Source: Anaerolineae bacterium (lineage in GTDB: Bacteria > Chloroflexota > Anaerolineae > J102). Taken from it: a DNA stretch of 47,081 nt. Both the position numbers and the translations under genes were made by a program. Each line of letters begins with the position of its first letter. Position 1 is the first letter of the stretch. Positions 1,855 through 21,164 of the stretch are shown here, piece after piece. Location of the stretch: the NCBI GenBank assembly GCA_027002405.1, contig JALWZT010000252.1, forward strand, positions 1-47,081, in the 5' to 3' direction. The notes under the pieces were generated by a model. It was not told the DNA's origin, did not search any database, and saw only the letters and a program-made list of their open reading frames with translations.

Positions 1855-4800
1855 TCATCTGAACATGGGCCACGCGGCATCCGACACCCACACGCTCTTG
1901 GGCCCCAGACGGTAGGTGGTGCCATTCACATACACCACCTCTAACCAATACCGGTATTGCCCGTGGTCCCGGACCATCCCATCCCACTGGTGATAGAGGC
2001 TTCCTTTGGGCATCCCCGCCCGTCGCGCGGACACAAAGCCTATTGGCACCGGCTCGGAAGCAGCACCAGGGATCAGCGCGGCACGCCACAGGCGGAACCC
2101 GGCGATCCATGTCTCGTTCATCGTCCGCCATGTGATCTCCACGATGCCCTCTCCGCCACGCGCCTGGAAGCTGGTAAATTCGATTCCGGTGGGGCTCTGA
2201 ATTCCCACCCGATCGCTGTCGGTTTTATCTGGCAAAGACTCCAACGCGCCCAACGGCCCGCTGGGCCCGTCCGGGTCCGCGGTGCCATCATGGGCTCGGG
2301 CCATGTTCGTTGTCTTGCCGCCCGGAAGCTGGGTCGTGTCCGCCTTGCCCGTGAACGTGATGACGACCGTGCGGGACAGGCCGGGCGCCAGGGGATTGCC
2401 ACCGAGCACGTCGGTCCAGGTGATGGTGCCGTCGTTGTTGTGGTCGTCGGAGTCGGGTTGGGCGTATTGGCCGTTGTTGCCGTAAGTCAGATACCCTGTG
2501 TTGTAGGTGTCTTCCAGGGGGAGGGTGGCCAGCCAGGTTTGGCCGGTGTTGGTGATGCGGATGGTGAAGCTGATGGGGGCTCCCACCCGTACCGGGTCGG
2601 GGGTGTTCAATTGTTTGGTGAGGGTGTAACTGGTGGTGATGGTGAAACCGAAGTCGATGGTGGGGTTGGTTTCGTTGGTGCCCAAGGTGAGGGAGACGTT
2701 GTGGTCCGTGGGGTCGCCGTCCGAGTCTTTGGTATCGTCGCCCACGTTTTGGGGGCTGGCGGTCCAGTTTTGCAGGGGGCCGGAGGTGAAGTTGGAGGCG
2801 TCCACGGTGACGGTGTAGGTTCCGGCCGCGAGGTTGGCGAAGGTGTACACGCCCGAGGCGTCGGTGGTCGTCGAGTCGGAGGCCGTGCCGCTGAGGGAGA
2901 GGGCCACGTTGGGGATGCCCGGTTCGCCCGCATCCTGGACGCCGTCCCGGTCGATGTCCCACCAGACCAGGTCGCCGATGCGGCCATTGGCCTGGATCAC
3001 GGTATTGGGTTCGGCACTATCCTCATCGTCATCGGGCAGGCCATCGTTCAGATCATCCACCGTGTGGTCCGCGGCCGGGTCTGAATCCACATCCTGTTGA
3101 TCCGCCTCGGTGACCTCGGCCCAGTTGGTGTAGTTGCCCGAGGCCAGCACCTCGGCCCGCAGATGCAATGTCACGCTGGCTCCATCGGCCAGGTTGCCGA
3201 TGGTCCACACGCCTGTGATGCTGTTGAAGGCGCCACTCCCGTCGTCGGAGACATAGCTGTAACCCGAGGGGAGCTGGTCGGTGACCTGCACACCTGTCGC
3301 GTCATTGGGGCCGCTATTCGTCACGGTGATGGTGAAGGTGATCACATCCCCCACATGGGGCGTGGTGTCGTTGATGTCTTTGGTCAGGCTGAGGTCGATA
3401 AGGGGCCGGAAGCCAAAGTCGAAGGTTTCGTCCACCTGATTGTCGGGGAAGTTGTTGGGCCCGGCCGCGCCGTTGCTGTCGCCGTTGCCGTTTTCGCCCG
3501 TGGGCAGGGCTGTCACATCGGTGATGGTGAAGTCCGGCCCTTCCACGGGGGTGCCAGAGCCGCCCGTTTGGGTGCCGTCGGAATCCTTGACGTCGCCACC
3601 GCCCTGATTGGGCGTTACGGCCAAGGGGGCAGAGGAGGGAGGTGTAGGAATCTGCACCCGATAGGTGCCGGGGATCAGCCCGCAGAATTGGTACTTGCCA
3701 TCGGAACCGGTGACGTAGGTGTAAACCTTGTCATCGCCTTGGGCCAGGCCCTGGCTGGCGCTGGTCTCGATGTTCCCATTGCTCCCGGCCCACACCAGGC
3801 GCACGCCCACGCCACTCAGGGCCGTGTCGCTGGCATCTTGCACGTTGGCAGTGGTCCCGGGGAAGTCATTCCATACGTAATTGCCCACGCAGGCCAGGGG
3901 CTGCCAGTAGTCCTCCACTTCGCCATTGCTGGCCGCACCGCCCCACTGGGTCCCGGTCAGGGTGTCGGTGGTCAGGCGGAAGCGCATGTGTACTTCGCCG
4001 CCGTCGAAGGTGGCGTGGCTGGGCACGACGGTGCAGATGATTTCGTTGTTTAGGTCGGTGTTGGCAGTCACCGTGGTCAGGGCGAAGGATTCGTCCTGGT
4101 CTACGCCGCCGCTGCCGTTATCGAAGTCCCCGTCGCCGTTCCAATCGACCCAGGCCATCAGGGTAGCCGCGCTGCTCAAGCCGTTGTGGGCCGTTACCCG
4201 GAAGCAGGCTTGGCCGTCCGGGATCAGCGGCGTCACCAGTTCCACGCCGTCCTCGTCGTCGTTGTTGCTACAGGTTCCTACTGCGGTGCCCGTGTTGCCG
4301 TCATCCCCCTTGCCGCTGCCGCCGCCTGCGGCGCCGGCATGGCCCGTGGTGTCTACCTGGCCGTCCCCTTCGCCATCGACGCAGGAACCCAGGTAGAGGT
4401 TGGAGGTGATGGTATGGTTGGGACCGCCTTGGGCGTTGGTGGTGTCGAAGCTGTCGGGCAGGTCGCCCCAGTCCTTGTTGTGGTAGAGACCCGCGTCCCA
4501 GGTGGTATTGTTCTCCCCGGCGCTGAGGTTGATGGCGCCGGTGCAGCCGGTGGAGGGGTCTGCGTCGCTATCGGTGGTGTCGGCGCCCTGGTTGGCGGGG
4601 CTGAAGGCGTAGCCCGAGGGCTTGATGAATTTCACCGAATAGGTCCCGGCCACCAGGTTGGTGAAGCTGTAGTTGCCGCTGCTGTTGGTGGTGGTGCTCT
4701 GGGCCGCGGTGCCGGAGCAGGAGCTGTTGGTGTACAGCTCCACGGTGACGTTCTGGATGCCCGTCTCGCCCGCGTCCTGGACGCCGTCCGCGTCGGTGTC

Positions 4801-7227
4801 GTTCCACACGAAGTCCCCTAGGGACCCGGTTTGGAGTTGTTTGAAGCCGAAGTCGAGATCATGGTTGTTCTGCCCATCTCCGCCCGTGGTAAAGACCACG
4901 CCGATATTTCCTGCACCGTCCACATTGGCTACGCCATCGCTATCCCGTTTATCCGCGCCGGGGTCGCTGCCGCCGTTGTCCGCGACCGTGGGGCCGTTGA
5001 CGCCTGCACCGCAACTATTGGTGATGGCGCTTTGCGTGGGGTCGATCTTGATGCGGCATTGGGCGTTGCGTGGGATGATGTGGATGCTGCTATCCCACGC
5101 GGCCGCGGGCCAGCCATTGGCCGCGTTGATGTTCCCTGTGTTGTCTTTGAACAGATACTGGCCGTTGGCATCGGTGGTAGTGGTCGCGGTGGCCTCGTAG
5201 CCGTTGCCCGGATTGCCGTCGGTGTCGCATTCCAGCGTGACCGTGGCGCCACTGACCACGGGCTCGCCTGGGTCCTGTACGCCATTTTCTGCGCCTACGC
5301 CGCCAGCGCCGATATCGCACCACAAGCGGTTGCCGATTTCCAGAGGCGCGGGATAGCTCAGGGCTTCCAGGTCGCCCAGGCCGTTGGCCTTGCCAAACTG
5401 GCCCGGATCGTCTTGATAAATCTGAAACACATGGGTGGGCGCGCCATCCACATTATTTTGCCAATAAATCCCCCCCACATCCATCTTGTCAAAACCAATA
5501 CTATTCTGAGGGGTCTTGGCGGTGACCACGACATCCTCCAGCAGCCATTGGGCCAGGGCTCCTGACGCGGGTTCGGTATGGACCGTGACGCCGTAGTAAT
5601 TATTGGTGCCATCGCCCCAATAAAATTCCCCACCGAACCATTCAGGGGAGGGATTGGGCGATGTGGTCACCCGCTGAGCACCACAAGTTTGAGGTACATT
5701 CTTGTCACTACCCCCTTCCCGTAGGGGATAAACATAATTGCCACTGCCGGCGTCATAGTAGGCACACCAAAGGTTGCCGAAGGGTTGCGTGTTGGTCAGG
5801 CCATCGCCATCGCTATCTCCATTGGGATCGGGCGTTTGATTTCCCCATTGGTCACCCATGCGATCGCGTATGCCCAGGGTAATGTCTTCCCCATAAAAGG
5901 CCAAATCCCCTACCATCAACTGGCGGGCAACCCGGTAGTCATTTTGCAAAGCCGCCTGACCGATATCGGTGATCCAGGGATTCATGCCACTGGGGTCCAC
6001 GGCTTCGTTGCCATTGGGGTCCTGGGTGGGATTAAAAGCCATCACGGTGGTCCAGGTGCCGGAGGAAGGTATCAATTGCTGCACATAGACCATGGCCTCA
6101 TTATCGCAGGTCTGCCCCACATAGACCTTATCATCCTTGGTGGCCATGCCAAAGGGATAGATGGTTCCCGTACAGCGATTAGCATCGGTGGGATCAGGAA
6201 TGGCCCATTGGCCCGCGAGGGTGCCGGTGCTGGTGTTGATGCCGATGACTTTGTGGTCATCGATGAGCACCACGTAAAGGATGCTGTCATCCCAGGAGAT
6301 ATCGATATCCCCCATGCCGCATCGCCCCACCTGGTCGAAGTAGGTTTGCTCATAGCCGGTGGGGTAGGGGGTGTCGATATCGCGGCCGTGATCGCCACAA
6401 AGGGTGAACCCCAGGTCGCTCTCTACGTTCACCCATTGCTGAGGCGCGGCCGTGGCCTGGCCGGTCTTGGGGTCAATGGGGGTGCGGTAGATCTGGCCTC
6501 GTCCGCCCGGGCCATAGCCCACCAGATATTTGTGGAAGGCCGCGGTGTAGAGATACCCATGGGTCCGGTCCCAGGCCATGCCATACGCGGCGCCGATCTG
6601 GCCAAAGGTGGAAAGCTGGGTATAACTGCCATCGGTAGGCGAACCGGTGACTGTGCCGTTGTGCGCATTGGCTCCCACCCCGCTGCGGCGCATGGAGATG
6701 AGCCCGGGATTATCGGCGTAATCACCATCGTACGCGCCCTGGGACATGAACACGGTGGCGACAACCGGGTCGGGCTGAGAATACTGGGCAGGATTGTTGA
6801 CGCCAATCTCAAGGTTCGAGGTGCCTGTGTTGGCAAAGACCACCGTGGTGCTCCCCGCCGCCCCATCAAAAAGATAGGATGGTAAATCGGTCACTTCCAA
6901 TCGCCAGGTTCCCGCGGAGGGGACGTTCAAGGTAAAGGTGCCGTCGTTGGCGGTTACCGTACTGACTCCGTTGCTGGTCCCCGACGCGCTGGCCGGATAG
7001 GCCGTGACCGTGACGCCGGCCACGCCTGGTTCGGGAAACTGGGGGGTGGTGTTGATGTCACCAGTAGCTGTGTCGCGCTGGCCATTGGCATTGAGATCGC
7101 GATACACCACACCGGTCAATGTGGCGGAAGTCTCCCCCGGCGCGGCCAGGCCCTGAATGCCTACCGCCAGCACCAAAAAGGAGAAGACCAGAGTGAGGGA
7201 CAGGAGTCTGTCAAGTCCTATTTTCAT
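1855..7227 (-). CDS. Giant secreted SdrD_B/DUF11/GEVED repeat surface protein (1790 aa)
   Basis: A signal peptide at residues 1-29 (ending GLAAPGETS) is followed by a SdrD_B-like domain (GVVYRDLNANGQRD) to about 118. A propeller-like region at about 150-625 has MAWDRTHGYLYTAAF motifs. More SdrD_B modules begin near 629 (NRLWCDIGAGGVGAENG), 799 (GSLGDFVWNDTDADGVQD), 1112 and 1416 (GRIGDLVWWDIDRDG). A GEVED module ends near 1104 (GEVEDYW), DUF11 modules begin near 1277 (IDLSLTKDINDT) and 1534, and an Fn3-like C-terminal domain begins near 1677. Such modules are calcium-binding or stalk-like beta-sandwiches in adhesins. No LPXTG, transmembrane anchor or S-layer domain is seen, so anchoring is unknown. 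GAGG lies about 10 nt before the ATG. The gene is a paralogue of the 2497-aa gene downstream and shares near-identical DNA blocks with it. Ligand or role (adhesion, sheath, matrix) cannot be told. Confidence 0.9.
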   Translation of the reverse strand: MKIGLDRLLSLTLVFSFLVLAVGIQGLAAPGETSATLTGVVYRDLNANGQRDTATGDINTTPQFPEPGVAGVTVTAYPASASGTSNGVSTVTANDGTFTLNVPSAGTWRLEVTDLPSYLFDGAAGSTTVVFANTGTSNLEIGVNNPAQYSQPDPVVATVFMSQGAYDGDYADNPGLISMRRSGVGANAHNGTVTGSPTDGSYTQLSTFGQIGAAYGMAWDRTHGYLYTAAFHKYLVGYGPGGRGQIYRTPIDPKTGQATAAPQQWVNVESDLGFTLCGDHGRDIDTPYPTGYEQTYFDQVGRCGMGDIDISWDDSILYVVLIDDHKVIGINTSTGTLAGQWAIPDPTDANRCTGTIYPFGMATKDDKVYVGQTCDNEAMVYVQQLIPSSGTWTTVMAFNPTQDPNGNEAVDPSGMNPWITDIGQAALQNDYRVARQLMVGDLAFYGEDITLGIRDRMGDQWGNQTPDPNGDSDGDGLTNTQPFGNLWCAYYDAGSGNYVYPLREGGSDKNVPQTCGAQRVTTSPNPSPEWFGGEFYWGDGTNNYYGVTVHTEPASGALAQWLLEDVVVTAKTPQNSIGFDKMDVGGIYWQNNVDGAPTHVFQIYQDDPGQFGKANGLGDLEALSYPAPLEIGNRLWCDIGAGGVGAENGVQDPGEPVVSGATVTLECDTDGNPGNGYEATATTTTDANGQYLFKDNTGNINAANGWPAAAWDSSIHIIPRNAQCRIKIDPTQSAITNSCGAGVNGPTVADNGGSDPGADKRDSDGVANVDGAGNIGVVFTTGGDGQNNHDLDFGFKQLQTGSLGDFVWNDTDADGVQDAGETGIQNVTVELYTNSSCSGTAAQSTTTNSSGNYSFTNLVAGTYSVKFIKPSGYAFSPANQGADTTDSDADPSTGCTGAINLSAGENNTTWDAGLYHNKDWGDLPDSFDTTNAQGGPNHTITSNLYLGSCVDGEGDGQVDTTGHAGAAGGGSGKGDDGNTGTAVGTCSNNDDEDGVELVTPLIPDGQACFRVTAHNGLSSAATLMAWVDWNGDGDFDNGSGGVDQDESFALTTVTANTDLNNEIICTVVPSHATFDGGEVHMRFRLTTDTLTGTQWGGAASNGEVEDYWQPLACVGNYVWNDFPGTTANVQDASDTALSGVGVRLVWAGSNGNIETSASQGLAQGDDKVYTYVTGSDGKYQFCGLIPGTYRVQIPTPPSSAPLAVTPNQGGGDVKDSDGTQTGGSGTPVEGPDFTITDVTALPTGENGNGDSNGAAGPNNFPDNQVDETFDFGFRPLIDLSLTKDINDTTPHVGDVITFTITVTNSGPNDATGVQVTDQLPSGYSYVSDDGSGAFNSITGVWTIGNLADGASVTLHLRAEVLASGNYTNWAEVTEADQQDVDSDPAADHTVDDLNDGLPDDDEDSAEPNTVIQANGRIGDLVWWDIDRDGVQDAGEPGIPNVALSLSGTASDSTTTDASGVYTFANLAAGTYTVTVDASNFTSGPLQNWTASPQNVGDDTKDSDGDPTDHNVSLTLGTNETNPTIDFGFTITTSYTLTKQLNTPDPVRVGAPISFTIRITNTGQTWLATLPLEDTYNTGYLTYGNNGQYAQPDSDDHNNDGTITWTDVLGGNPLAPGLSRTVVITFTGKADTTQLPGGKTTNMARAHDGTADPDGPSGPLGALESLPDKTDSDRVGIQSPTGIEFTSFQARGGEGIVEITWRTMNETWIAGFRLWRAALIPGAASEPVPIGFVSARRAGMPKGSLYHQWDGMVRDHGQYRYWLEVVYVNGTTYRLGPKSVWVSDAAWPMFR

Positions 7228-7812: not shown

Positions 7813-9558
7813 ATGTCCCACCTCTCCCGTTCTTTTCTCATCATGGTCTTGCCTGTGCTGCTCCTCGGAGGGCTGGCGGGCTGTCATCGCGCGGCCACGC
7901 CCGTGGCCGTGGCCCCCACCGCCACCCTGGAGGCGAGCACGGCTCCCACCCCGGCTCTTCCCCTGTCCATCCCCACCCTTAGCCCGGCCAATCACATCAC
8001 GCCCCTGGCCGAAGAGCTGGACGAAAAGCAGCAACTGGCCCAAATCGTGGCCATGAACCATCCCCTGCTGCACAAACTGACCACGGACCCTATCTCGGGC
8101 CAACCCTTGCGGGCCGAGGTCTTCGGCGTCTATCCCGCCCGCGAAAGCGACATCACCTCCGAAAGCCAGACCTGCAAGACCGTCACCTGCTATCGGGTGG
8201 ACATCTACAACTGGGCTACCAACACCACCTACGTGGTCATGGTCGATATCGACCATCAGCAGGTGGTGGATGTGGCCGCCATGCCCGAAACCTCTCCCGA
8301 ACTGCCGCCTCATCTCATTCGTGAGGCCATGGACATCGCGGTGAACGCCCCCGAGGTGGAGGAAGCCCTGGGCTTTAAGCCCGACCCGGACGCGCCCACC
8401 ATGGCCGGCGTGAAGACCACCTTTAACAACACCGCGTGCGAGCTTTCCCACCATCTCTGCGTGGCCCCCACCTTCGAGCTGGAAGACAAAGCCCTATGGG
8501 CCATCGTGGACCTCACCGATAAGAAATTGGTGGCCGTGCGCTGGACCAACTACGGCGATTACAGCAGCGGCCTGCCCACGGAAGAGACCGTGGAGCGGCA
8601 GGATATCTTCGAGGAGTACTGCCGCCAAAGCCATGAGTTGGAGAAAGATGGCTGGCGCATGGATTTCATCCTCACCGCGTCCGACGGCCTGCGCCTTTCC
8701 GACGTCACTTTCCAGGGCAAGCCGGTGTTGCGCAGTGTGAAGCTCGTGGATTATCACGTGAGTTATTCCACCAGGGATCAGTTCGGATACAGCGACGCCA
8801 TCGGCTGCCCCATGTTCAGCTCCGCCGCGGTGGTGGCCATGAGCCCGCCCGACATCGGCCCTATCACCGATGACAGGGGGCAGGAGATCGGCTTCTACAT
8901 CAACCAGGACTTCGTCCATCCCCTGTGGCCCCAGCCCTGCAACTATCGCTACAATCAACGCTACGAATTCTACCAGGACGGGCGTTTTCGGGTGATGGCC
9001 GCGAATCTGGGCCGCGGCTGCGGCAACGACGCGGTCTATCGCTTCCTCTATCGCATCGATCCCGTGGCTCCCGATGGTGGCGGCCAGACCTTCGCCCAAT
9101 GGGACGGCGACGAGTGGAAGGTGTGGGAAAAGGAGCAATGGTTCAAGGAGGAGCCCGACACGCCCGTCACGTCCGAGGGGTACCTTTATCGCATCACCAA
9201 CGAGGACGACAGCGGTTACTACATCGAACCCAATCGGGGCCAGTTCGGCGACGGCAGTCGTGGGGACCACGCCTTCACCTATGTGGTCAGGCACCATCCC
9301 GACGAGGGCGATGCAGATATGCTCACCCTGGGCGTGTGCTGCAACCTGGACTATCGCCAGGGGCCCGAGGTGTTCATCGATGGCGAGTCCATCGTGGATG
9401 AGGATATCGTCATCTGGTATGTGCCGGTCATCGAAAATGACGACCGGCCGGGCCATGAATACTGCTGGGCCGACAAGGTGGTGGAAAACGGCATGTACGT
9501 GACCAAAATCTGGCCCTGCTGGTCCGGGCCCATGTTTGTTCCCATGGCACAGCCGTAG
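7813..9558 (+). CDS. Copper amine oxidase-fold lipoprotein, metal ligands apparently lost
   Basis: This 581-aa lipoprotein has a lipobox (LLGGLAGC, Cys24) and then a Pro/Thr/Ala linker. Residues about 60-250 resemble the N-terminal PepSY-like domains of copper amine oxidases. From about 280 the catalytic beta-sandwich is recognisable: DGLRLSDVTFQGKPVLRSVK, CNYRYNQRYEFYQDGRFRV (Y378 at the topaquinone Tyr position) and DEDIVIWYVPVI. Where active enzymes have the HxH copper pair I read AVYRFLYRID, and where they have the third His (WYTVGVTH) I read WYVPVIEN. By eye, all three ligands are replaced, so oxidase activity is doubtful; it may be a binding or structural protein on the outer face of the membrane. 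It has no Shine-Dalgarno and lies head-to-head with the giant surface gene. The alignment was made by eye, not with a profile. Confidence 0.65.
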   Translation: MSHLSRSFLIMVLPVLLLGGLAGCHRAATPVAVAPTATLEASTAPTPALPLSIPTLSPANHITPLAEELDEKQQLAQIVAMNHPLLHKLTTDPISGQPLRAEVFGVYPARESDITSESQTCKTVTCYRVDIYNWATNTTYVVMVDIDHQQVVDVAAMPETSPELPPHLIREAMDIAVNAPEVEEALGFKPDPDAPTMAGVKTTFNNTACELSHHLCVAPTFELEDKALWAIVDLTDKKLVAVRWTNYGDYSSGLPTEETVERQDIFEEYCRQSHELEKDGWRMDFILTASDGLRLSDVTFQGKPVLRSVKLVDYHVSYSTRDQFGYSDAIGCPMFSSAAVVAMSPPDIGPITDDRGQEIGFYINQDFVHPLWPQPCNYRYNQRYEFYQDGRFRVMAANLGRGCGNDAVYRFLYRIDPVAPDGGGQTFAQWDGDEWKVWEKEQWFKEEPDTPVTSEGYLYRITNEDDSGYYIEPNRGQFGDGSRGDHAFTYVVRHHPDEGDADMLTLGVCCNLDYRQGPEVFIDGESIVDEDIVIWYVPVIENDDRPGHEYCWADKVVENGMYVTKIWPCWSGPMFVPMAQP

Positions 9559-9740: not shown

Positions 9741-12700
9741 TCACGGCATGGCGTGGGGCTGAGTGGAGGGCAAGAGCCACGTTTCCGTTGGCCCCAGGTG
9801 GTAGGCGCTCCCGTTCTGATAGAGGATTTCCAGCCAGTAACGATAGTGTGCTGGCCGCCGGACCAAAGGATCCTCGAAGCGATAGGCGTCGCCCGTCGTG
9901 ATGCCCGCATGCTGCGCGGGGATAAAGGCCACCTGGAGGGGAGCGGTGAAGTTGCCCGTGGGGAGCTCTATGGCCCGCCACACGCGGAAGCCGATGATGC
10001 GGCTCTCGTTCACCGTGCGCCAGGTCAGGAGCACCGCGCCGTCGTCGCCGCCTTCTGCATGGAAACTGCCCAGCTCGATGCCCGTGGGATTCTGGATGGT
10101 CACGTCGTCTTGGTCCGTTGCCGCGGGGAGGGACTCCAAGGCACCCAACGGCCCGCCGGGCCCGTCCGGGTCCGCGGTGCCGTCATGAGCCCGGGCCGTG
10201 TTCGTGGTCTTGCCACCGGGCAAAGAGGTGGTGTCTGCCTTGGTGGTGAACGTAACGACGACCGTGCGGGACAGGCCGGGCGCCAGGGGATTGCCGTCCA
10301 GAGCGTCGGCCCAGGTGATGGTGCCGTCGTTGTTGTGGTCGTCGGAATCGGGTTGGGCGTATTGCCCGTTGTTGCCGTAAGTCAGATACCCTGTGTTGTA
10401 GGTGTCTTCCAGGGGGAGGGTGGCCAGCCAGCTCTTCCCTGTGTTGGTAATGCGGATGGTGAAGCTGATGGGGGCTCCCACCCGTACCGGGTCATGGGTG
10501 TTCAATTGTTTGGTGAGGGTGTAGCTGGTGGTGATGGTGAAACCGAAGTCGATGGTCCGGTTGATCTCACCGGCGTTCAAGGTGACGCCCGCGTTGTGGG
10601 TGGTGGGATCCCCATCCGAATCGGTGGTGTCGTCACCCACGTTTTGCGGACTCGCTTCCCAATCTTGCAGGGGGCCGGAGGTGAAGTTGGAGGTGTCCAC
10701 GGTGACGGTGTAGGTTCCGGCCACCAGGTTGGCGAAGGTGTACACGCCCGAGGCATCGGTGGTCGTATTGGCCGAGGCGGTGCCGCTGAGGGAGAGGGCC
10801 ACGTTGGGGATGCCCGGCTCGCCCGGGTCCTGGACGCCGTCCCGGTCGATGTCCCACCACACGAGATCGCCCAACGAACCTCTGAGTTGACTCATGGGCA
10901 GATTGTTGAGGGCAATCTCCGGATCCCCCGGTTCTAAATTGAAGGTGAGATAGTAGGGGTTGTTGGCGCAGGTGTGGTCATCTAGATAGCCGTTATCATC
11001 CCCATCGTCGGAACCCAATTCATAGGGATCGGGCTGACCGGTGGGGTCCAATGGAGGTGGATCCTGGGAAGTGCAGGTGGGGCTCAGTTGGTAACCGGGG
11101 GGTGGCGTGACGGTCATGGTGTACACGCCAGGCGTGCCGTCTGTGTAGAATCGGTATGTGCCGTCGCTGCCGTCTTGGGTGATGGTGACCTGCCCGGGCC
11201 CATCCACGGTAATCGAACCGCCCGAGAGAATCTCGCCCGTGTCTTCATCATAGATGAAGCCGGCAGGATCAAAGCTCACGGGCGTGGGATCGTCCTCGCC
11301 AGGGTCGCCGGCATCCCCATTACCCGAGGAGTCGGGGTCTACATGGTTATCCGAGGTGTCCTGCACGGTCGTGCCTTGGGGGGTCTTCCCCGTGGCGACG
11401 GCCTGGTTGTGGAAGGGCCCCCTATTGGTGCCAGGCGTCACCATCGCGGTCAGGGTGATCACCCCGCTGGCCCCCACGTTCAGGACATCTGTGCCCGCCA
11501 GGAGGCTGATGTCCGTGGAGCCATCGTATCCCGAATTGACTGTGAAGTCAGAACTGGTGGGGGCGGCGCTGTTGACCGTGATGCCGGCAAAGGTTTGGGA
11601 GAGATCATCGGTGACCTGGACGTCACTCAAGGTCACATCGCCCAGATTTTCCACCCGGAGGGTGTAAACCACCGTGTAGGTGCCGTCGCCATTGTCCGTG
11701 ACGTGATGCACCCGTTTGGCAACGCCAATGGCGGGGTGTTCGGGCGTGACCGTTGCACTGTCCTGGTCGTCTTCGTTGGGATCGTGGTTGTTGGGCGTGG
11801 AGTCGTGGTCGGTCTGGTCCGCGGCCTTGACCTCCGCGGTGTTGGTGTAGGCGCCCGAAGCGTTGACCGTGGCCGTGATGTGCAGGGCGGTGGAGGCAGC
11901 GGCGTTGAGGGCGCCTACGCTCCATTCGCCGTTGGTGTGGTTGTAGCTGCCGCCGCTGTCGTCCGACACGTAAGTATAGCCCGAAGGCAGGGTGTCGGAG
12001 ATAACCACGCCCGTGGCATGGCTGGGGCCGCTGTTGGTGACGGTGATGGTGAAGGTGACGTTTTCTCCCACCTGGGGATGGGTGGGCGTGACGGTCTTGC
12101 TCAGGCTGAGGTCGATGAGGGAACTGACCGTGACGTCTTCATCATTCTCGGGGTCCTGGTCGGACGGTGTGTCTTCGTCCTGGCCCTGGGTTCCATCATC
12201 GTTGATGAGCGGATAGTTGGATGCCACCGCGTAGGCTGTGTTGTCGTAGGTGCCTGGGGTGAGAGAGGGGGCCGTATCTGCCAGGAAGGTGATGGTGACC
12301 GCGCCTCCGGCGTGGATGGTCCAATGCCCCCAGGTGGGAACGGCGTCCCCCGCAGAAGGTGAGACCGGGTTGGTGCGGCTGGCGTTGGTTTGGGTGATGG
12401 TGGCAGTGCTGGCATAGGTGAAGCCGCTGGGCAGGGTATCGCTGATGGTGACCTCCGTGGCCGCGTCCAGGCCCGTGTTGGATACGGCGATGGTGTAGGT
12501 CACCTGTTGGCCCGCGTACACCGTGGGCGTTGTTGTATCCTTGTCGATGAGCATGCTGGGCGCCACAATGGTGGCCAGATAATCTTCGACTTCGCCATCG
12601 GGCGCTGCTCCCCCCGACCCCAACGTGGCATCGGTACTGAGGCGGATGCGGAGGCCCACTGGCTGGTTCACCACCGCATTCGCCGGGACAGGGAAGGGGA

Positions 12701-15700
12701 GAGTGACCACGCTGTCGTTGGCTCCGGGGGCCACGGTAGCGGTGATGGCTTCGCCGGTATCGGCGAAGTCGCCATCGCCGTTGTAATCCATGAAGCCGTA
12801 GAGGGTGGCGGTGATGGCGCTGGTGTTGGTCACGGTCACGGGCACGGAAACGGTCTGGCCGGGCGTGAATTGGGGGATAATGACGCCGTCTTCATCGTCG
12901 CCATTGCCTGTTCCCTCTCCAACCGGCTGATCATCATCTGTCGCGTTGCCTGTGTCATCCACGCCATCCACAAAGCCATCGCTATCCGCGTCGATCTCTG
13001 TCCCCAGGAACAGGTCGATCTGACCATCGAAATCCGCGTCCAACAGCACATGGCTGGGCCCGCCATCCTGGTCCAGGGTTGCATAAGGTGAGGGCAGGTC
13101 CCCGCGGTCGCGGGAGATGAGACATCCCGTGCCGTCATTCACCACCGCGGGTTCGCTGCCGGTGCCCACCGGCTCCAGGGCGGGCGTTGCATCCGAGACA
13201 TCGATGCGATAGACCTGGTAGGGACCTGTGCCTGCGGCGTCGGTGTTGATCAGGGCATAGAGGTTGCCGCTTTGGTCGAACACCGCCCCCCCTTGTTGGT
13301 GGGGCACAGAGTCTTGCAGGAGTTTGCGGGTGATCACGCCCGTGGTGGGGTCGATTTTGATGAGACGGGTGGGGGAATAGCGGACCGCGTAGATGTTCCC
13401 ATCCTGGGGATTGAATGCGAAGTCTGCGGTGGCCAGATGCCCGGGACTGCCGTCCTCGGTCAGCGGGAGTACGTGGAAAGTCATGGCCCGCAGGTCGATG
13501 ACCGCCAATTGGGTGTTCGCGGACGCGTTCGCGTTGGAGCTCCCCACGTAGAACTTCTCGTTGCGGTCCACATCCCCTGCATTGAGCACGTTTTGGGCTA
13601 CCAGGGGGTCCCCCTGGGCAATGGCGTTGCCCTGGAAGGTGAGCGCATTCTCCGCCAGCACTTCGCCCAAGATCTGGAATCCCCCTGTGTTGGGATTGAT
13701 GCGGGCCAGGAGGCTTTTGCGAGGCGCGGGCTCATTCGAATCCCAGGTCATGGCGTAAATGTAGCCATCCTGGATGTTGAAGCCAATCGCGTTCAGGTCC
13801 TGCACCCCTGCTGTCAAATCCTGCACGATGGGCGGGGGCCCGCTGTCATGGGGGGTTTCGCCGATGGGGTCTGTGCTGAAATCCAGTTGGTCGAAGCGGA
13901 AGCGATAGTTATTGTCCGGGTTCGCGCGGGTCTGATAGAACGCGTCATTGCACTGGGCCACGCCCGCTTTGAAATCCCGGATGGTGAGGGGATAATCTTC
14001 CACTTCGCCATCGGGTGCGGGCCCGGTGGGGCCCACATTGGCGGCCGTGGTCAGGCGGAAGCGGGCATAGGTGTCGCCCGCGGTGACATCGTTGGGCACG
14101 GTCCACGCCAGGGTCGCGGTGGTATCGCCATTGTTGACGGAGGTCGCGGCCCCTTCGTCCGCGTCGAAGACGCCATTCCCGTCGAAGTCGATCCAGCCAT
14201 AGAGGTTGGCCGTGGTGGTGCTGGTCACGGTGACGCTGATGGTCCAGCGTCGCACAAAGCCTGCATCCGCGTTGGAGATTTCAAATTGGTCCGCGATATC
14301 CACGCCGTCCTCGTCATCCACCTTGTTGGTGTCGTCTCCGTCGGCATTCACCGTAGGCTGGCCATTGCTCTCTGCGTCGATGGTGTTACCCAGATGCAGC
14401 CCTGCGGTGATGACGTGGGTGGGACCATTGGTCGCGGCCGTGGTGCCGTAGGTGTCCGGCGCGTCGCCCCAATCCTGGTTGGGATAGAGGCCCGCGTCCC
14501 AGGTGGCATCGTCTTCCCCGGCGCTGAGGTTGATGGCGCCGGTGCAGCCGGTGGCGGGGTCTGGGTCGCTGTCGGTGGTGTCGTCACCCTGGTTGGCGGG
14601 GCTGAGGGCGTAGCCCGAGGGGGTGATGAACTTGACGGAATAGGTGCCGGCCGCCAGGTTGGTGAAGCTGTAGTTGCCGCTGCTGTTGGTGGTGGTGCTT
14701 TGGGCCGCGGTGCCGGAGCAGGTGCTGTTGGTATACAGCTCCACGGCGACGTTCGGGATGCCGGTCTCGCCTGCGTCCTGGACGCCGTCCGCGTCCGCGT
14801 CGTTCCAGACGAAATCCCCTAGGGACCCGGTTTGGAGTTGTTTGAAGCCGAAGTCGAGATCATGGTTGTTCTGCCCATGTCCGCCCGTGGTAAAGACCAC
14901 GCCGATATTTCCTGCACCGTCCACATTGGCTACGCCATCGCTATCTCGTTTATCCGCGCCGGGGTCGCTGCCGCCGTTGTCCGCCACCGTGGGACTGTTG
15001 ACGCCCGCGCCGCAGCTATTGATAATGGCCAACTGATTGGGATCGATTTTGATGCGGCATTGGGCGTTGCGTGGGATGATGTGGCTGCTGCTATCCCACG
15101 CGGCCGTGGGCCAGCCATTAGCCCCGTTGATATCGCCTGTGTTGTCTTTGAACAAATACTGCCCGTTGGCGTCCGTCGTCGTACTCGCGGTGGCCTCGTA
15201 GCCGTTGCCCGGATTGCCGTCGGTGTCGCATTCCAGGGTGACGGTAGCGCCACCGACGACCGATTCGCCGGGGTCTTGGACGCCATTTTCTGCGCCCACA
15301 CCGCCAACACCGGTATCACACCACAGCCGGTTGCCCACTTCCAACGGCGCAGGTGCAGAAAGATATTCTAAATCCCCTAGGCCGTTTCCCTTGGCAAAGG
15401 TGCCGTCGCCGGGGTTGGTACCGCCCGGCGAGGTGTCATAAATCCGATAAGCCCGGTTGCGTTGACCGGTCGTGTTATCCAACCATAAAATCCCACCATC
15501 GAAGAATTGATTGGTATCGTAAATGGGGTCGTATGCATCTTCAACCACTTCGCCGCGACCAGGGACGTTTACCAAGCCCGCCATGGATGTCTCGGTATGA
15601 TAGGGGTAATGCTCCTGATAGTAGAATTCTCCGCCCCCCGGTCCTTGGTTGTTATTGGCACCCCCCGTGGTATGGCCGCCACAGCTCCCATTGTTTTCTA

Positions 15701-17234
15701 GGGTCCATCCTCCTGCACCATCGGAACATGCTTTCAAAATGTCCCCCGCGCTATCGCCGGAATACATGGTGTTATCGGTCGGATCCGTGCTAAAGCGACG
15801 AAAACCCATCTGAGAACCGTAGCGGTCTTGGATCCCCAGCAGCATATCCTCACCGTCAAATTCGATATCGGTCAACCACGGCTGCGGATAAGCGACCTCC
15901 CCCGAATTGAATTGGGGTGATTGGAGATGGGCGAATGTAGGAGACCATGGATTCCAGTCCGCGTCGGAATCTTGGTTGGCATCAAGGGCATAGGAACGAT
16001 TATAAGTTAAGGGAATACTTAATTCGAGGGTAAATGTCCCGGGCGCCCCTGCATCGGTGGAATAAACAAAGGCTTGTAATTCGTTCCTGTTTTGAGAGGC
16101 CTCAGCAGTACAGGTCATGCCTATATAGACTTTGTCCTCATGAAAAGCCAGGGCAAAGGGCCGTAAGTCGTCTGAGCTTTGACATGGTGCGGTCAGAGGT
16201 AATGAGTACGTGGTGATATCCGCAATGCCCAGAGGCAAACCGGTGGTGGTAATAGGTATTTGGTAGAGTTCCTTGGTAAACAGGTTGATGGTCCATAATG
16301 TGCTCAAATCGTCGGAGATATCCAGGTCGCCAAAACCGATCCGGCCTACCTGATCCCATGAATCCGGATCATGATCCCAACAATCGACTTCATCTCCCGA
16401 CTGAGATGGCCAGGTGGTTCCCAATCCCCCCACACATTCGTTGGTAGCCGAGTTATATTGCACATGAGGATCGGTACCGGTTTGAGCACTCAAATCGGCA
16501 TAGACTGTGGTCACGCCATGGAGAATACGAAAGATCAGGCCTGTCTCACCGTGATTGCGGAACTTGGTATGCCGTTTCATAAATGCCGCCGCATAAAGCG
16601 CGTCCGTATTACGATCATAGGCAAGGCCCCAGGTTGTGCCGATATCCGTCTGGGTTGCTTCGACACTAGGCGCGGGGGTGTCAAAGCCATTGGGATCACC
16701 GTTATCGCAGCTCCCATCCAAATTGGCATCCACGCAACCCGCATTATAGTCAAAGGTTAGAAGCGCGCGATTCGAGCCGCTGCGATCGGCGTGATAATAG
16801 ATAGAGGTGGCTAAACGAATATTACTCCCGACGTATTCGTTCGGATTGTTGACACCGATGTTCACTTGGCTGGCCCCATCATCGGCAAATACGACGGTCG
16901 TACTCCCCGCCGCCCCATCAAAAAGATAAGGGGGGAGGCCGGTCACTTCGATGCGCCACGAGCCGCTCCCCGTCGCCAAGGAGAATGAACCATCTGTTGC
17001 CGTGGTCGTGGAAACGCTCCCGGTGCTTCCCGTAGCGCTGGCCGGATAGGCTGTCACGGTCACGTTAGGCACGCCCGGCTCATGGGCATCGCGCACCCCA
17101 TTGGCGTTGTAATCGCGAAAGACAACGCCTGTCATGCCGGAGGGCGTTGCCTCACTTGGAGGAGGCAACCTCAGTATCTCCATCGCCACCCACGCTAGAG
17201 CAACGACCAGAATAAAAACAAACCATTTTTTCAT
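9741..17234 (-). CDS. Giant secreted SdrD_B/DUF11/GEVED repeat surface protein (2497 aa)
   Basis: I start at the internal Met (MKKWFVFILVVALAWVAMEI) rather than the track's Met 21 residues upstream. It gives a proper signal peptide and has GGGAGAG 7 nt before the ATG. Modules in order: SdrD_B near 31 (GVVFRDYNANGVRD); propeller-like region to about 625; SdrD_B near 631 and 803; GEVED ending near 1076; a second propeller-like stretch at 1090-1480 (FNIQDGYIYAMTWDS, YVGSSNANASANTQ); GEVED ending near 1546; three DUF11-type modules near 1560, 1705 and 1833; CnaB-like near 1988; SdrD_B near 2120 (GSLGDLVWWDIDRDG); DUF11-like near 2238; Fn3-like C-terminus from 2381. No sortase motif or C-terminal membrane helix is present. 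Compared with the 1790-aa paralogue it has an inserted middle section. It is likely an extracellular fibre or adhesin; ligand unknown. Confidence 0.9.
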   Translation of the reverse strand: MKKWFVFILVVALAWVAMEILRLPPPSEATPSGMTGVVFRDYNANGVRDAHEPGVPNVTVTAYPASATGSTGSVSTTTATDGSFSLATGSGSWRIEVTGLPPYLFDGAAGSTTVVFADDGASQVNIGVNNPNEYVGSNIRLATSIYYHADRSGSNRALLTFDYNAGCVDANLDGSCDNGDPNGFDTPAPSVEATQTDIGTTWGLAYDRNTDALYAAAFMKRHTKFRNHGETGLIFRILHGVTTVYADLSAQTGTDPHVQYNSATNECVGGLGTTWPSQSGDEVDCWDHDPDSWDQVGRIGFGDLDISDDLSTLWTINLFTKELYQIPITTTGLPLGIADITTYSLPLTAPCQSSDDLRPFALAFHEDKVYIGMTCTAEASQNRNELQAFVYSTDAGAPGTFTLELSIPLTYNRSYALDANQDSDADWNPWSPTFAHLQSPQFNSGEVAYPQPWLTDIEFDGEDMLLGIQDRYGSQMGFRRFSTDPTDNTMYSGDSAGDILKACSDGAGGWTLENNGSCGGHTTGGANNNQGPGGGEFYYQEHYPYHTETSMAGLVNVPGRGEVVEDAYDPIYDTNQFFDGGILWLDNTTGQRNRAYRIYDTSPGGTNPGDGTFAKGNGLGDLEYLSAPAPLEVGNRLWCDTGVGGVGAENGVQDPGESVVGGATVTLECDTDGNPGNGYEATASTTTDANGQYLFKDNTGDINGANGWPTAAWDSSSHIIPRNAQCRIKIDPNQLAIINSCGAGVNSPTVADNGGSDPGADKRDSDGVANVDGAGNIGVVFTTGGHGQNNHDLDFGFKQLQTGSLGDFVWNDADADGVQDAGETGIPNVAVELYTNSTCSGTAAQSTTTNSSGNYSFTNLAAGTYSVKFITPSGYALSPANQGDDTTDSDPDPATGCTGAINLSAGEDDATWDAGLYPNQDWGDAPDTYGTTAATNGPTHVITAGLHLGNTIDAESNGQPTVNADGDDTNKVDDEDGVDIADQFEISNADAGFVRRWTISVTVTSTTTANLYGWIDFDGNGVFDADEGAATSVNNGDTTATLAWTVPNDVTAGDTYARFRLTTAANVGPTGPAPDGEVEDYPLTIRDFKAGVAQCNDAFYQTRANPDNNYRFRFDQLDFSTDPIGETPHDSGPPPIVQDLTAGVQDLNAIGFNIQDGYIYAMTWDSNEPAPRKSLLARINPNTGGFQILGEVLAENALTFQGNAIAQGDPLVAQNVLNAGDVDRNEKFYVGSSNANASANTQLAVIDLRAMTFHVLPLTEDGSPGHLATADFAFNPQDGNIYAVRYSPTRLIKIDPTTGVITRKLLQDSVPHQQGGAVFDQSGNLYALINTDAAGTGPYQVYRIDVSDATPALEPVGTGSEPAVVNDGTGCLISRDRGDLPSPYATLDQDGGPSHVLLDADFDGQIDLFLGTEIDADSDGFVDGVDDTGNATDDDQPVGEGTGNGDDEDGVIIPQFTPGQTVSVPVTVTNTSAITATLYGFMDYNGDGDFADTGEAITATVAPGANDSVVTLPFPVPANAVVNQPVGLRIRLSTDATLGSGGAAPDGEVEDYLATIVAPSMLIDKDTTTPTVYAGQQVTYTIAVSNTGLDAATEVTISDTLPSGFTYASTATITQTNASRTNPVSPSAGDAVPTWGHWTIHAGGAVTITFLADTAPSLTPGTYDNTAYAVASNYPLINDDGTQGQDEDTPSDQDPENDEDVTVSSLIDLSLSKTVTPTHPQVGENVTFTITVTNSGPSHATGVVISDTLPSGYTYVSDDSGGSYNHTNGEWSVGALNAAASTALHITATVNASGAYTNTAEVKAADQTDHDSTPNNHDPNEDDQDSATVTPEHPAIGVAKRVHHVTDNGDGTYTVVYTLRVENLGDVTLSDVQVTDDLSQTFAGITVNSAAPTSSDFTVNSGYDGSTDISLLAGTDVLNVGASGVITLTAMVTPGTNRGPFHNQAVATGKTPQGTTVQDTSDNHVDPDSSGNGDAGDPGEDDPTPVSFDPAGFIYDEDTGEILSGGSITVDGPGQVTITQDGSDGTYRFYTDGTPGVYTMTVTPPPGYQLSPTCTSQDPPPLDPTGQPDPYELGSDDGDDNGYLDDHTCANNPYYLTFNLEPGDPEIALNNLPMSQLRGSLGDLVWWDIDRDGVQDPGEPGIPNVALSLSGTASANTTTDASGVYTFANLVAGTYTVTVDTSNFTSGPLQDWEASPQNVGDDTTDSDGDPTTHNAGVTLNAGEINRTIDFGFTITTSYTLTKQLNTHDPVRVGAPISFTIRITNTGKSWLATLPLEDTYNTGYLTYGNNGQYAQPDSDDHNNDGTITWADALDGNPLAPGLSRTVVVTFTTKADTTSLPGGKTTNTARAHDGTADPDGPGGPLGALESLPAATDQDDVTIQNPTGIELGSFHAEGGDDGAVLLTWRTVNESRIIGFRVWRAIELPTGNFTAPLQVAFIPAQHAGITTGDAYRFEDPLVRRPAHYRYWLEILYQNGSAYHLGPTETWLLPSTQPHAMP

Positions 17235-17638
17235 TAGAAAACTCTCCCAATAAGAGAAACTTGCTTTTTGTGTTTCCTTCCCTTTGGGCGAAGCCATAAA
17301 GCTCGAGTCTGGCGAAAATTATGTTGGTCGCTTTTCACGCCATTTTTTCGACACGAATTAAGCGAATTTGGCGAATTTTTCTTATCCTTTTTCGTGAAAT
17401 TCGTGTTCATTCGTGTCAAGATCAAAAAACGCCAGTGCCCAGCATAAAGGATGCAGAACGCGGAGATGCTCAAAAATCAGTGTTTAATCAAATGCGGAAG
17501 CGTGAAAATGAATCGTTGGCTCTCCCCCTGTTATCAGAGTGTTTTGTAACTGCTGATGAAACGCCTTCTATTTAGTATAGCAGAAGGGATATCAACAAGA
17601 ACCTGTCGTAAGCGGCAAAAGTGCTCCGTAAGGGAGAG

Positions 17639-17799: not shown

Positions 17800-18903
17800 A
17801 TGAGCAAGAAATCGCGCAAAAAAAAGCGCCGCGGCCCATCGGCTTCCTCCCCTGCCGCCGGCCGCCCCCCATTCTTGAGCCGTCGGATGGGCCTGATGGC
17901 GGTGGTTGGGGTGTTGCTGCTGGCGGTGGGCCTAGGCCTCTGGTGGTGGTCGCGCGGGGATGGCCAGCAAGAGTCGGCTGCCACCCCGGCGCAGGCCCAA
18001 ATCCCCACCCAAACCGCGCCCGCGGCCACGGCCGAGCCCACCCTGCCACCGAACATGGGCCCGGTCATGGGCTGTGTCCATCGCCCCGGGTTCGTCTCTC
18101 AACTCCATCTGGGCGACCAGATTTACATCGGCACGAACCTCAAGGGCTATACCGGCCTCACCCTCAGCGCCCGCCAACCCGATGGCCGCGTGGCCGTTTA
18201 TCAGCATCCCACCTGGGACGATGCGGGCAACCTGGCGGCTTATGTTCTGGACGAGGATGGCAACATCTACGTGGCCCCTGCCCCTTTTGTCAGCCTGGAT
18301 GAAAACCCGCCCGAGGAGCAGAACAACGTCTATAAAATCGACACCCACACCGGGGTCATGACGTTGTTCATCCAGTTACCTTGGGCCCAACCGCCCAGCA
18401 CCACCAATCCCTATGGCGTCCTGGGCCTCACCTACGACTGCGACACCCACAGCCTCTATGCCAGTTCCGTGGCCGGCTCCACCTATGACGAGGAGCTGGG
18501 TCGCATTTTCCAGATCGACCTGAGCACGGCCTCAGTCGTTAGCCGGTTGGATGGGGTGGATGCGTTTGGGGTGGCCGCGTATCGGGGTGTCTCGGGCAAA
18601 CGCCTCTATTTCGGCTCCGCGCGCAACAGCAGCATCCGCTCGGTGGCCCTGGACGAGACCGGCGCCTTGGGCACGGAACAGCGGCTGGAATTCTATCTGC
18701 AACAGGCACGGGGCGGGCAGGATGAACGGGCCAAGAAGATTCAGTTCCCCAAACGGGACGAGATGCTGGTCAAGGGCATCGAATTCAATTACACCCTGCG
18801 GGCGGCCAGCGATTTCGCCGAGCACGACTACACCTATCGCTACGACCCCGCGAACGACGCCTGGGAATTCGTGCAGGTGAAATTGAGAGAAGGCGTGCAA
18901 TAA
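17800..18903 (+). CDS. Membrane-anchored extracytoplasmic protein, unknown function
   Basis: This 367-aa protein has a very basic N-terminus (MSKKSRKKKRRG) and one transmembrane helix at about 30-50 (GLMAVVGVLLLAVGLGLWWW). A Gln/Ala/Thr/Pro linker and a roughly 300-residue outer domain follow, so the topology is N-in. The outer domain has short repeated beta-strand motifs (GLTYDCDTHSLYASS, GRIFQIDLSTASVV, KRLYFGSARNSSIRSVALDE) typical of a beta-propeller. They resemble the propeller-like segments of the neighbouring giant proteins, though I saw no catalytic motif. It is head-to-head with the 2497-aa gene, repeating the arrangement at 7.2-9.6 kb, and the two genes may form a surface pair. No clear Shine-Dalgarno. 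Confidence 0.75.
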   Translation: MSKKSRKKKRRGPSASSPAAGRPPFLSRRMGLMAVVGVLLLAVGLGLWWWSRGDGQQESAATPAQAQIPTQTAPAATAEPTLPPNMGPVMGCVHRPGFVSQLHLGDQIYIGTNLKGYTGLTLSARQPDGRVAVYQHPTWDDAGNLAAYVLDEDGNIYVAPAPFVSLDENPPEEQNNVYKIDTHTGVMTLFIQLPWAQPPSTTNPYGVLGLTYDCDTHSLYASSVAGSTYDEELGRIFQIDLSTASVVSRLDGVDAFGVAAYRGVSGKRLYFGSARNSSIRSVALDETGALGTEQRLEFYLQQARGGQDERAKKIQFPKRDEMLVKGIEFNYTLRAASDFAEHDYTYRYDPANDAWEFVQVKLREGVQ

Positions 18904-19074
18904 AATACGGCATGGTTCAGATCGTCTATCCGGCATCTTTGCAATGTCAGATGGCCAGCGTTTGGCAAAGCGCGTCAAACGTCAAAGCGTAGCGAAATGA
19001 CCACGCTGGACGTTGGACATTGGACGTTGTAAAGATAAACCATGCCAGAAATAAAAAGTTCGAGGTCATCTATT

Positions 19075-20511
19075 ATGCGTAGAACCTTTTCGCTGTTCAT
19101 TGTCCTGGCGTTGCCACTTCTTCTGGCTGCTTGCGCTCCTGGCGGCGATTCGCTGGACGCCCAACTGCAAACGGCCATCCAGGGCAACCGCCTTGCTCCC
19201 TTGCAGCCTGCGCCCGAAGTCTCACCCGCGAAGCTGCGATTGGGACAATACCTCTTCTTCGACAAAGAACTCAGCGGCAACCGTGACACATCCTGCGCCA
19301 CCTGTCACCAGCCCCTGGCCGACACCGTCGATCACTTGCCGCTGCCCATCGGTACAGGGGGGACGGGCGTGGCGCCCAACCGCCATTTGGGGCCACTAAA
19401 ACCGCTGGTGGCCCGCAACACCCCCGCCCTCTTCAACCTGGGCCAGCCCGGGTGGCGCACCATGTTTTGGGATGCCCGGGTGGAAAAGCTGGAGGAGGGC
19501 ACCATCATCGCCCGCACCAGCCAGGGGCCGGTGGCGCTGCCCCCGGACCTGGAAAACGTGGTGGCCGCGCAGGCCCTCTTCCCGCCCGCGGCCCGGGCGG
19601 AAATGCGGGGCTTCAAGGGGGACCCCATGCGCCAATCGCCGGGCGATGTGGACATCTTCGGCCGGGAGAACGAGCTGGCCAAATTCCAGGATAATGATTT
19701 CCCCGCCATCTGGCAGGGCCTCTGGCAGCGTATCACCGCCATTCCCGAATACGTGGACCTGTTGCAACAGGCCTATCCCGATACCCCCGTGGAAGCCATG
19801 GGGCCTCAGCATCTGGCCAACGCCATCGCCGCCTTTCAGATCGACGCCTTCACCTTCACCCAAAGCCCCTGGGATCGGTACCTGGCGGGAGACAAACACG
19901 CGCTTTCCCCTGAAGCCAAGCGGGGGGCCTTGCTCTTTTTTGGCCGAGCCGGATGTAGTGTCTGCCACCACGGCCCCCTCTTCACCGATCAGCGGATGCA
20001 CAACATTGCTGCGCCCCAGATCGGGCCGGGCAAGCAGCCCGCCATCGAGCATCGCGACTACGGGCGTTTCCTCATCACCCGGCAGGAAGAAGACCTCTTC
20101 GCCTTTCGCACGCCCTCTCTGCGCAACGTGACCCTCACCGGCCCCTACCTGCACAATGGCGCGTACGAGCGTTTGGAAGATGTCATTCGTCATCACATGA
20201 ACCCGGAGCAGGCTCTGGCCAACTACGACGTGATGCACCTGCCGCCCGAAGTACGCCAGCGCACCTGGATCAGCGAAAGCCTGAACCGGGCCATGCTCGA
20301 CCGCCTTGATCCCCGGCTGCAGGTTCCCGCGCATCTCACCGATGAAGAGATTCGCGACCTGCTGGCTTTTCTGGATGCGCTGACCGACCCCGCGGCCAGG
20401 GACCTGTCCAAAACCATCCCCGACCGGGTCCCCAGCGGGCTCCCTGTCTCCGACGACCCCGCGGTCATGCAACGTTTCCTCCAGGACCATCCCTTTGTCC
20501 ATCATCCCTAA
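19075..20511 (+). CDS. Di-haem cytochrome c peroxidase / MauG-family lipoprotein
   Basis: A 478-aa c-type cytochrome. I chose the ATG at 19075 over 19042 because it has GAGG 9 nt upstream and begins a clean lipoprotein signal (MRRTFSLFIVLALPLLLAAC, lipid Cys20). Two haem-binding motifs are visible: CATCH at 74-78 and CSVCH at 294-298. The family motifs LGQYLFFDKELSGN, FRTPSLRNVTLTGPYLHNG and EEIRDLLAFLDAL are present. Bacterial CCPs reduce peroxide with electrons from small cytochromes or cupredoxins, while MauG-like members oxidise protein side chains; sequence reading alone does not separate them. As a lipoprotein it would act on the outer face of the membrane. The gene is followed by an ATCAGT array and a strong terminator, so it appears monocistronic. 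Confidence 0.88.
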   Translation: MRRTFSLFIVLALPLLLAACAPGGDSLDAQLQTAIQGNRLAPLQPAPEVSPAKLRLGQYLFFDKELSGNRDTSCATCHQPLADTVDHLPLPIGTGGTGVAPNRHLGPLKPLVARNTPALFNLGQPGWRTMFWDARVEKLEEGTIIARTSQGPVALPPDLENVVAAQALFPPAARAEMRGFKGDPMRQSPGDVDIFGRENELAKFQDNDFPAIWQGLWQRITAIPEYVDLLQQAYPDTPVEAMGPQHLANAIAAFQIDAFTFTQSPWDRYLAGDKHALSPEAKRGALLFFGRAGCSVCHHGPLFTDQRMHNIAAPQIGPGKQPAIEHRDYGRFLITRQEEDLFAFRTPSLRNVTLTGPYLHNGAYERLEDVIRHHMNPEQALANYDVMHLPPEVRQRTWISESLNRAMLDRLDPRLQVPAHLTDEEIRDLLAFLDALTDPAARDLSKTIPDRVPSGLPVSDDPAVMQRFLQDHPFVHHP

Positions 20512-21112: not shown

Positions 21113-21164
21113 CTGGCAGCCATGGATCGGAACTGCCGGCGTTCCGGTCCATTGCTTATGCCAG
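21113..21164. terminator. Hairpin shared by micropeptide 2 and TPR-CHAT gene ends
   Basis: The inner stem ATGGATCGGAAC / GTTCCGGTCCAT is extended by an outer CTGGCA / TGCCAG pairing that includes the last codons of the TPR-CHAT gene. It sits between two convergent stops and can fold in either transcript; no T-tract follows. Confidence 0.5.

Follow-up and report, generated by a model that had tools for sequence, protein, structure and literature searches.

A copper amine oxidase-fold lipoprotein family of Chloroflexota that lacks the copper ligands, with a beta-propeller partner and a frequent MauG-like neighbor

The locus and the fold of the lipoprotein

The stretch of DNA analyzed here (the window) comprises 47,081 nucleotides of contig JALWZT010000252.1 from an Anaerolineae bacterium. 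Three of its genes concern us. The first encodes X (positions 7813 to 9558, + strand; 581 amino acids), a lipoprotein folded like copper amine oxidases (CAOs) but lacking their copper ligands, as judged from its open reading frame, its match to PF01179, its fold, and a family alignment. Its companions Y (17800 to 18903, +; 367 amino acids) and Z (19042 to 20511, +; 489 amino acids) were found by clustering neighboring genes across loci. In the nearest relatives (L033 to L036), the three genes form a compact same-strand cluster. In the window, a 2,518-residue protein with SdrD_B, DUF11, and GEVED repeats (9741 to 17297, −; Pfam), which is not found between X and Y in those relatives, separates the two. 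With a second protein of this kind (1855 to 7227, −), it makes up a pair of giant repeat proteins flanking X. Such giants share a contig with X in several genomes, but their domains are numerous, and a conserved linkage with X is at most possible. A propeller domain related to Y was sought in the giants and rejected (hhalign probability of 4%). Other genes seen around these loci include, in L035, one immediately before X (4590 to 5837, +) whose product has three CxxCH motifs and, in the window, one for a 999-residue protein with a CHAT domain behind tetratricopeptide repeats (21156 to 24155, −).

The open reading frame of X has exactly the bounds given in the original prediction, and all sequence blocks quoted there are present. 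The lipobox, L-A-G-C24 (7873 to 7884, +), ends at Cys24, which agrees with the predicted lipoprotein and is nearly invariant in the core family. It is followed by two alpha/beta domains (residues 65 to 246; 8005 to 8550, +) in the place of CAO domains D2 and D3, delimited from AlphaFold2 (AF2) secondary structure, from a match of residues 119 to 186 to NCBIfam PRK11504 that lies below the cut-off of that model, and from hhalign, which aligns X with full-length CAOs. Residues 272 to 578 (8626 to 9546, +) form a shortened version of the CAO catalytic domain (D4), based on the start of the Pfam match at residue 272, Foldseek, and MAFFT.

The X family belongs to the CAO superfamily, by fold and by profile, beyond chance. 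A search with the Cu_amine_oxid profile, which the original prediction had named as part of its check, gave 35.5 bits (PF01179; E = 6.8e-9) against a curated cut-off of 27, and no other Pfam family matched X. X is the sole PF01179 gene found in its genome, and 25 of the 29 family members, X of the window included, match the profile when scanned individually. Compared as a family with ten genuine CAOs from the same phylum, X aligns over 469 columns with a probability of 95% (hhalign; E = 3.4e-8), and the comparison with standalone catalytic-domain CAOs gives E = 6.9e-8. The AF2 model, built on 29 sequences, has a pLDDT of 81.9 and a pTM of 0.82, and its 50 best Foldseek matches in the PDB are all CAOs (best E = 1.5e-19), which bears out the fold that had been proposed by eye. 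Searches of PDB sequences with X alone and then with its profile returned nothing, so that only the fold search found a match there. Because the global superposition on CAOs is mediocre (TM of about 0.5, rmsd of about 9.6 Å), the identity of the fold is secure, whereas the detailed superposition is not. The reading of the metal site given below comes from sequence alignments (two hhalign comparisons and one joint MAFFT alignment) rather than from the three-dimensional model.

The lost copper site and the retained tyrosines

Topaquinone is a self-made cofactor that requires copper, oxygen, and one tyrosine. In CAOs, the copper is held by three strictly conserved histidines (PMC3382800). The place of the HxH pair in X is taken by A407-V-Y409, upstream of R414 (9031 to 9054, +; hhalign, MAFFT, and column counts), with positions counted from R414, the Arg that is invariant in the RLD block. 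That of the third His, defined as W535 + 7, is taken by N542 (9436 to 9438, +; MAFFT and column counts). Across the 29 family members, the first column holds G, A, S, or P, the second holds Tyr in every case, and the third holds Asn in 25 and Thr or Leu in the others, so the predicted loss of the ligands extends to the whole family. Neither in the three copper columns nor beside them is there a conserved His in the 29 members; the nearest, H410, occurs in nine. The histidines that had been named as possible ligands are not conserved either (H486 in 5/29, H494 in 7/29, H495 in 12/29, and H548 in 4/29). Only H214 and H315 are (27/29 each), and they lie in different domains; thus, no site made of three histidines, of whatever kind, is conserved in the family.

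A true copper amine oxidase with its ligands masked by misalignment seems to us very improbable. The Pfam and PDB matches of X are indeed all to CAOs, and H410 is present in those nine members, but D4 contains no three conserved histidines. The one that it does keep, H315, falls at a position that is His or Phe in standalone relatives that bear the copper ligands. A hidden His site was ruled out by the column counts. Given that the three-His site that defines these enzymes was tested for and is absent, we conclude that X is not a copper amine oxidase.

The other components of the active site have fared differently. A block at the topaquinone position, W372-x-x-x-C376-N377-Y378-R-Y380 (8926 to 8952, +), includes a family-specific Trp and Cys, and column counts place W372, C376, Y378, and Y380 in 29/29 members and N377 in 25/29. 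The tyrosine that the original prediction took to be kept (in CNYRY) is therefore found throughout the family. In all three alignments, this C-N-Y-x-Y segment falls on the topaquinone motif NYD/EY of CAOs. From the fuller form of that motif, T-x-x-N-Y-D/E, N377 and Y378 are kept and the Thr and the acidic residue (R379 in X) are not. The invariance of Y378 says little by itself, because 29 of the 307 D4 columns are invariant. A second tyrosine, Y318 (8764 to 8766, +), is likewise invariant (29/29) and is aligned by both hhalign and MAFFT with the Tyr that hydrogen-bonds O4 of topaquinone, Tyr305 in HPAO-1 (PMC3382800). For the catalytic Asp of CAOs, conservation is not clear-cut; D328 (8794 to 8796, +) is present in 29/29 members and lies off the canonical Asp column in the profile alignments and in MAFFT. 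As far as aligned residues can tell, the organic half of the CAO active site appears to be kept in this family, whereas the copper ligands are lost.

The family also has features of its own. Twelve cysteines are invariant in its core members, five tryptophans are nearly or fully invariant, and C403, like W372 and C376, is invariant and specific to the family. In the AF2 model, C376 and C403 sit at adjoining ends of a predicted hairpin, and a disulfide there is likely on that basis.

An old family and its companions

Among 400 sampled Chloroflexota genomes, X occurs in 27, and two more carry a divergent form (L030 and L031). A thirtieth match (G196), which spans only residues 4 to 74, was left out of the count. 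Phylogenetically, X is a single clade (support of 100/100) apart from the His-bearing CAOs. Values of dN/dS among close relatives are about 0.1 (0.08 to 0.13); the family is under purifying selection, and it is old, conserved, and spread within the phylum. A pseudogene is excluded by these values together with the reading frame, which is uninterrupted in nearly all relatives but contains a single stop in L015. Relatives were also sought among plasmids and viral contigs, and none were found in either. Named close relatives are metagenome-assembled genomes of Anaerolineae. Two of the families that carry X (f25 and f61) have genes for photosynthetic reaction centres, and in f61 a single long open frame spans both matches; this would fit Chloroflexus-like and Roseiflexus-like phototrophs. 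Cultured strains with X probably exist, since phototrophic Chloroflexota carry it. The divergent relatives end in a cytochrome c domain plus a membrane helix; their genomes have no full-length match to Y, and no Z adjoins the gene. They also have an N-terminal anchor and the motif CCYRY.

Y is a beta-propeller behind a single membrane helix (residues 31 to 52), an assignment that draws on its AF2 model (pLDDT of 82.8) and on propeller matches in Foldseek. In the same 400 genomes, X is present in 27, Y in 28, and both in 26, when about 2 would be expected under independence, a contrast that is inflated by shared ancestry. The exceptions are G088, which has X without Y, and G024 and G359, which have Y without X (in G359, Y lies at a contig edge). 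The fold matches of Y are generic propellers (best E = 3.2e-6). A heavy chain of methylamine dehydrogenase (MADH) was considered for Y and found no support, as the best fold matches listed are generic propellers only, and searches of X and Y against Pfam and PDB sequences gave no match to MADH subunits (homologues of the mau structural genes). In genome G000, a further Y-like gene (G000:C259, L129), of 50% identity, lies on a contig of 4.4 kb that also has an SdrD_B match, and no second X was found in that genome.

Z of the window is a dihaem MauG-like lipoprotein with two CxxCH motifs, classified from PF03150 (CCP_MauG; E = 1.8e-31) and from TIGR03981. It comes nearest to TIGR03981, a MauG-like group, with 283.8 bits against a cut-off of 340, and Z of f61 comes nearest to MbnH (NCBIfam TIGR04039), with 325.2 bits against a cut-off of 362.85; at such scores, both are relatives rather than certified members of these groups. 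One f61 Z matches PDB 6e1c ("di-heme enzyme") with E = 3.4e-70. Proteins L079 to L082, of 725 to 753 amino acids, are MauG-like dihaem proteins in which the C-terminal half resembles right-handed beta-helix repeats by eye.

A PF03150 gene lies near X in 12 of the 29 genomes (G000, G166, G323, G341, G330, G309, G198, G230, G094, G246, G061, and G380), each of which has only one to three PF03150 matches in total, and it stands in three arrangements relative to X (downstream, divergent, and upstream in tandem). It does not adjoin X in G337, G012, G222, G260, and G088. In six genomes of f35, which have both X and Y, PF03150 genes are absent, so Z is not obligatory; there, either X needs no maturation or another enzyme performs it.

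The axial ligand of the six-coordinate haem bears on what Z may do. A Tyr in this position is the ligand of the MauG/BthA type, and canonical peroxidases have Met (PMC6405878). All 11 X-linked Z proteins of f61 and f25 have Tyr, and the unlinked L101 and L102 have Met, as do canonical peroxidases. Z of the window and four close relatives have His instead of Tyr. Replacing Tyr by His in MauG and BthA removes the near-infrared signature of bis-Fe(IV), and the BthA variant retains peroxidase activity (PMC6405878). The case for MauG-like chemistry is therefore weaker in the organism of the window. Z could also have Y as its substrate or be an ordinary peroxidase, either of which would count against a role in maturing X. 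In a related reading, which we consider unlikely, the target of Z is Y or something else, and X and Y form a complex that functions independently of Z: this would account for a nearly perfect co-occurrence of X and Y beside a patchy Z, yet in three f25 genomes (G246, G061, and G380) it is X that Z adjoins while Y is elsewhere in the genome.

Putative function and known parallels

The reading that we favor, to which we give a probability of roughly 40%, is that X is a copper-free putative redox protein that works with Y and is matured or served by Z where Z is present. The copper site would have disappeared in a single event at the root of this old family of Chloroflexota, and X would be a lipoprotein at the outer face of the membrane, partnered and probably in physical complex with the membrane-anchored Y. 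Z, where present, would probably oxidize an aromatic side chain in X, the likeliest site being around W372, C376, and Y378, and electrons from X may pass to haem rather than straight to oxygen. The fold, the kept tyrosines, the lost copper, the presence of Y, the frequent Z (an enzyme of the kind that modifies proteins and builds cofactors from their residues), and the cytochrome c fusion together favor such a role and do not prove it. A more specific version strikes us as rather improbable. In it, X would be a quinoprotein independent of copper, and a separate dihaem enzyme of the MauG/MbnH type, in place of copper-dependent self-processing, would turn the Tyr at the topaquinone position, or the Trp or Cys nearby, into a cofactor; the product would be an amine dehydrogenase coupled to cytochrome c.

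An inert surface protein is nearly as likely as a copper-independent redox protein. X would then be a disulfide-rich, noncatalytic binding or scaffold protein with Y as its membrane partner, and the haem protein next door would be incidental or would serve defense against oxidative stress. All copper ligands are gone, the 12 invariant core cysteines suggest stabilization by disulfides, six genomes manage with X and Y and no Z, and SdrD/DUF11 surface proteins flank X in the window. However, this reading leaves unaccounted for a MauG/MbnH-like gene that is repeatedly linked to X in three gene orders, the retention of both Y378 and Y318, and the cytochrome c fusion in the divergent relatives. We favor a copper-free redox protein over a dead relic. 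Thus, from the original reading of X as a nonenzymatic surface protein made from an oxidase, we retain the fold, the lipoprotein anchor, the loss of ligands, and the kept Tyr and part with the word "nonenzymatic", because the conserved module favors a redox role.

Known systems offer two parallels. MADH, matured with the aid of MauG to carry tryptophan tryptophylquinone (TTQ), has propeller and disulfide features, and the X-Y-Z set resembles it in that a single module contains a Cys-rich subunit of the cofactor-bearing type along with a dihaem enzyme like MauG and a partner that is a beta-propeller. It differs from MADH in that X is not homologous to MauA, that a quinone in X is hypothetical, and that no MADH heavy chain is among the best fold matches listed for Y. 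The other parallel lies in exported or surface proteins encoded beside a MauG- or MbnH-like enzyme, as with MbnP and MbnH. In CorA/CorB and MopE/SACCP, such a surface protein is cotranscribed with a MauG-like enzyme that probably oxidizes its Trp (PMC3912023). X and Z share this arrangement and differ from all three pairs in the CAO fold of X, in which a conversion of Trp to kynurenine or a copper site is only hypothetical.

Metal acquisition after the manner of MopE, CorA, or MbnP, with Z converting a Trp in X to kynurenine or a similar product and creating a metal site unrelated to that of CAOs, appears to be a minor candidate. The affinity of f61 Z to MbnH, the CorA/CorB precedent, and the five nearly or fully invariant tryptophans speak for it, but the only conserved His pair, H214 and H315, is split between domains, Pfam assigns X to the CAO family only, and no gene resembling copper uptake was noticed among the listed neighbors, part of which are annotated.

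Searches of the open-licence literature yielded no account of a family that combines the CAO fold with missing copper ligands, or of an association between a CAO and a MauG-like protein; a table of PMC8756737 includes, apparently without comment, a protein annotated as tynA that has a CxxCH domain. A conserved family that retains the topaquinone-position Tyr and its hydrogen-bonding counterpart, lacks the copper, and often has a MauG/MbnH-like neighbor would open to direct test whether a quinone site can shift from metal-dependent self-processing to maturation by a dedicated enzyme. Should X prove inert, it would still be a clean phylum-wide case in which an oxidase has become a structural protein with one constant partner.

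Compared with the CAOs of PF01179 (AGAO, HPAO-1, and ECAO), X shares the fold, the D2-D3-D4 layout, the NYxY segment, and the Tyr that hydrogen-bonds the cofactor. It differs in having no copper His, a D4 domain about 100 residues shorter, 12 core Cys, a lipoprotein anchor, and a near-constant propeller partner. The same phylum, mostly in X-bearing genomes, also has secreted standalone CAO catalytic domains (L049 to L055, of 398 to 404 amino acids, and L056). They resemble X in being secreted and in having the D4 domain; unlike X, they retain the HxH pair together with the third His, and they have GAYNY in place of NYD/EY at the topaquinone motif.
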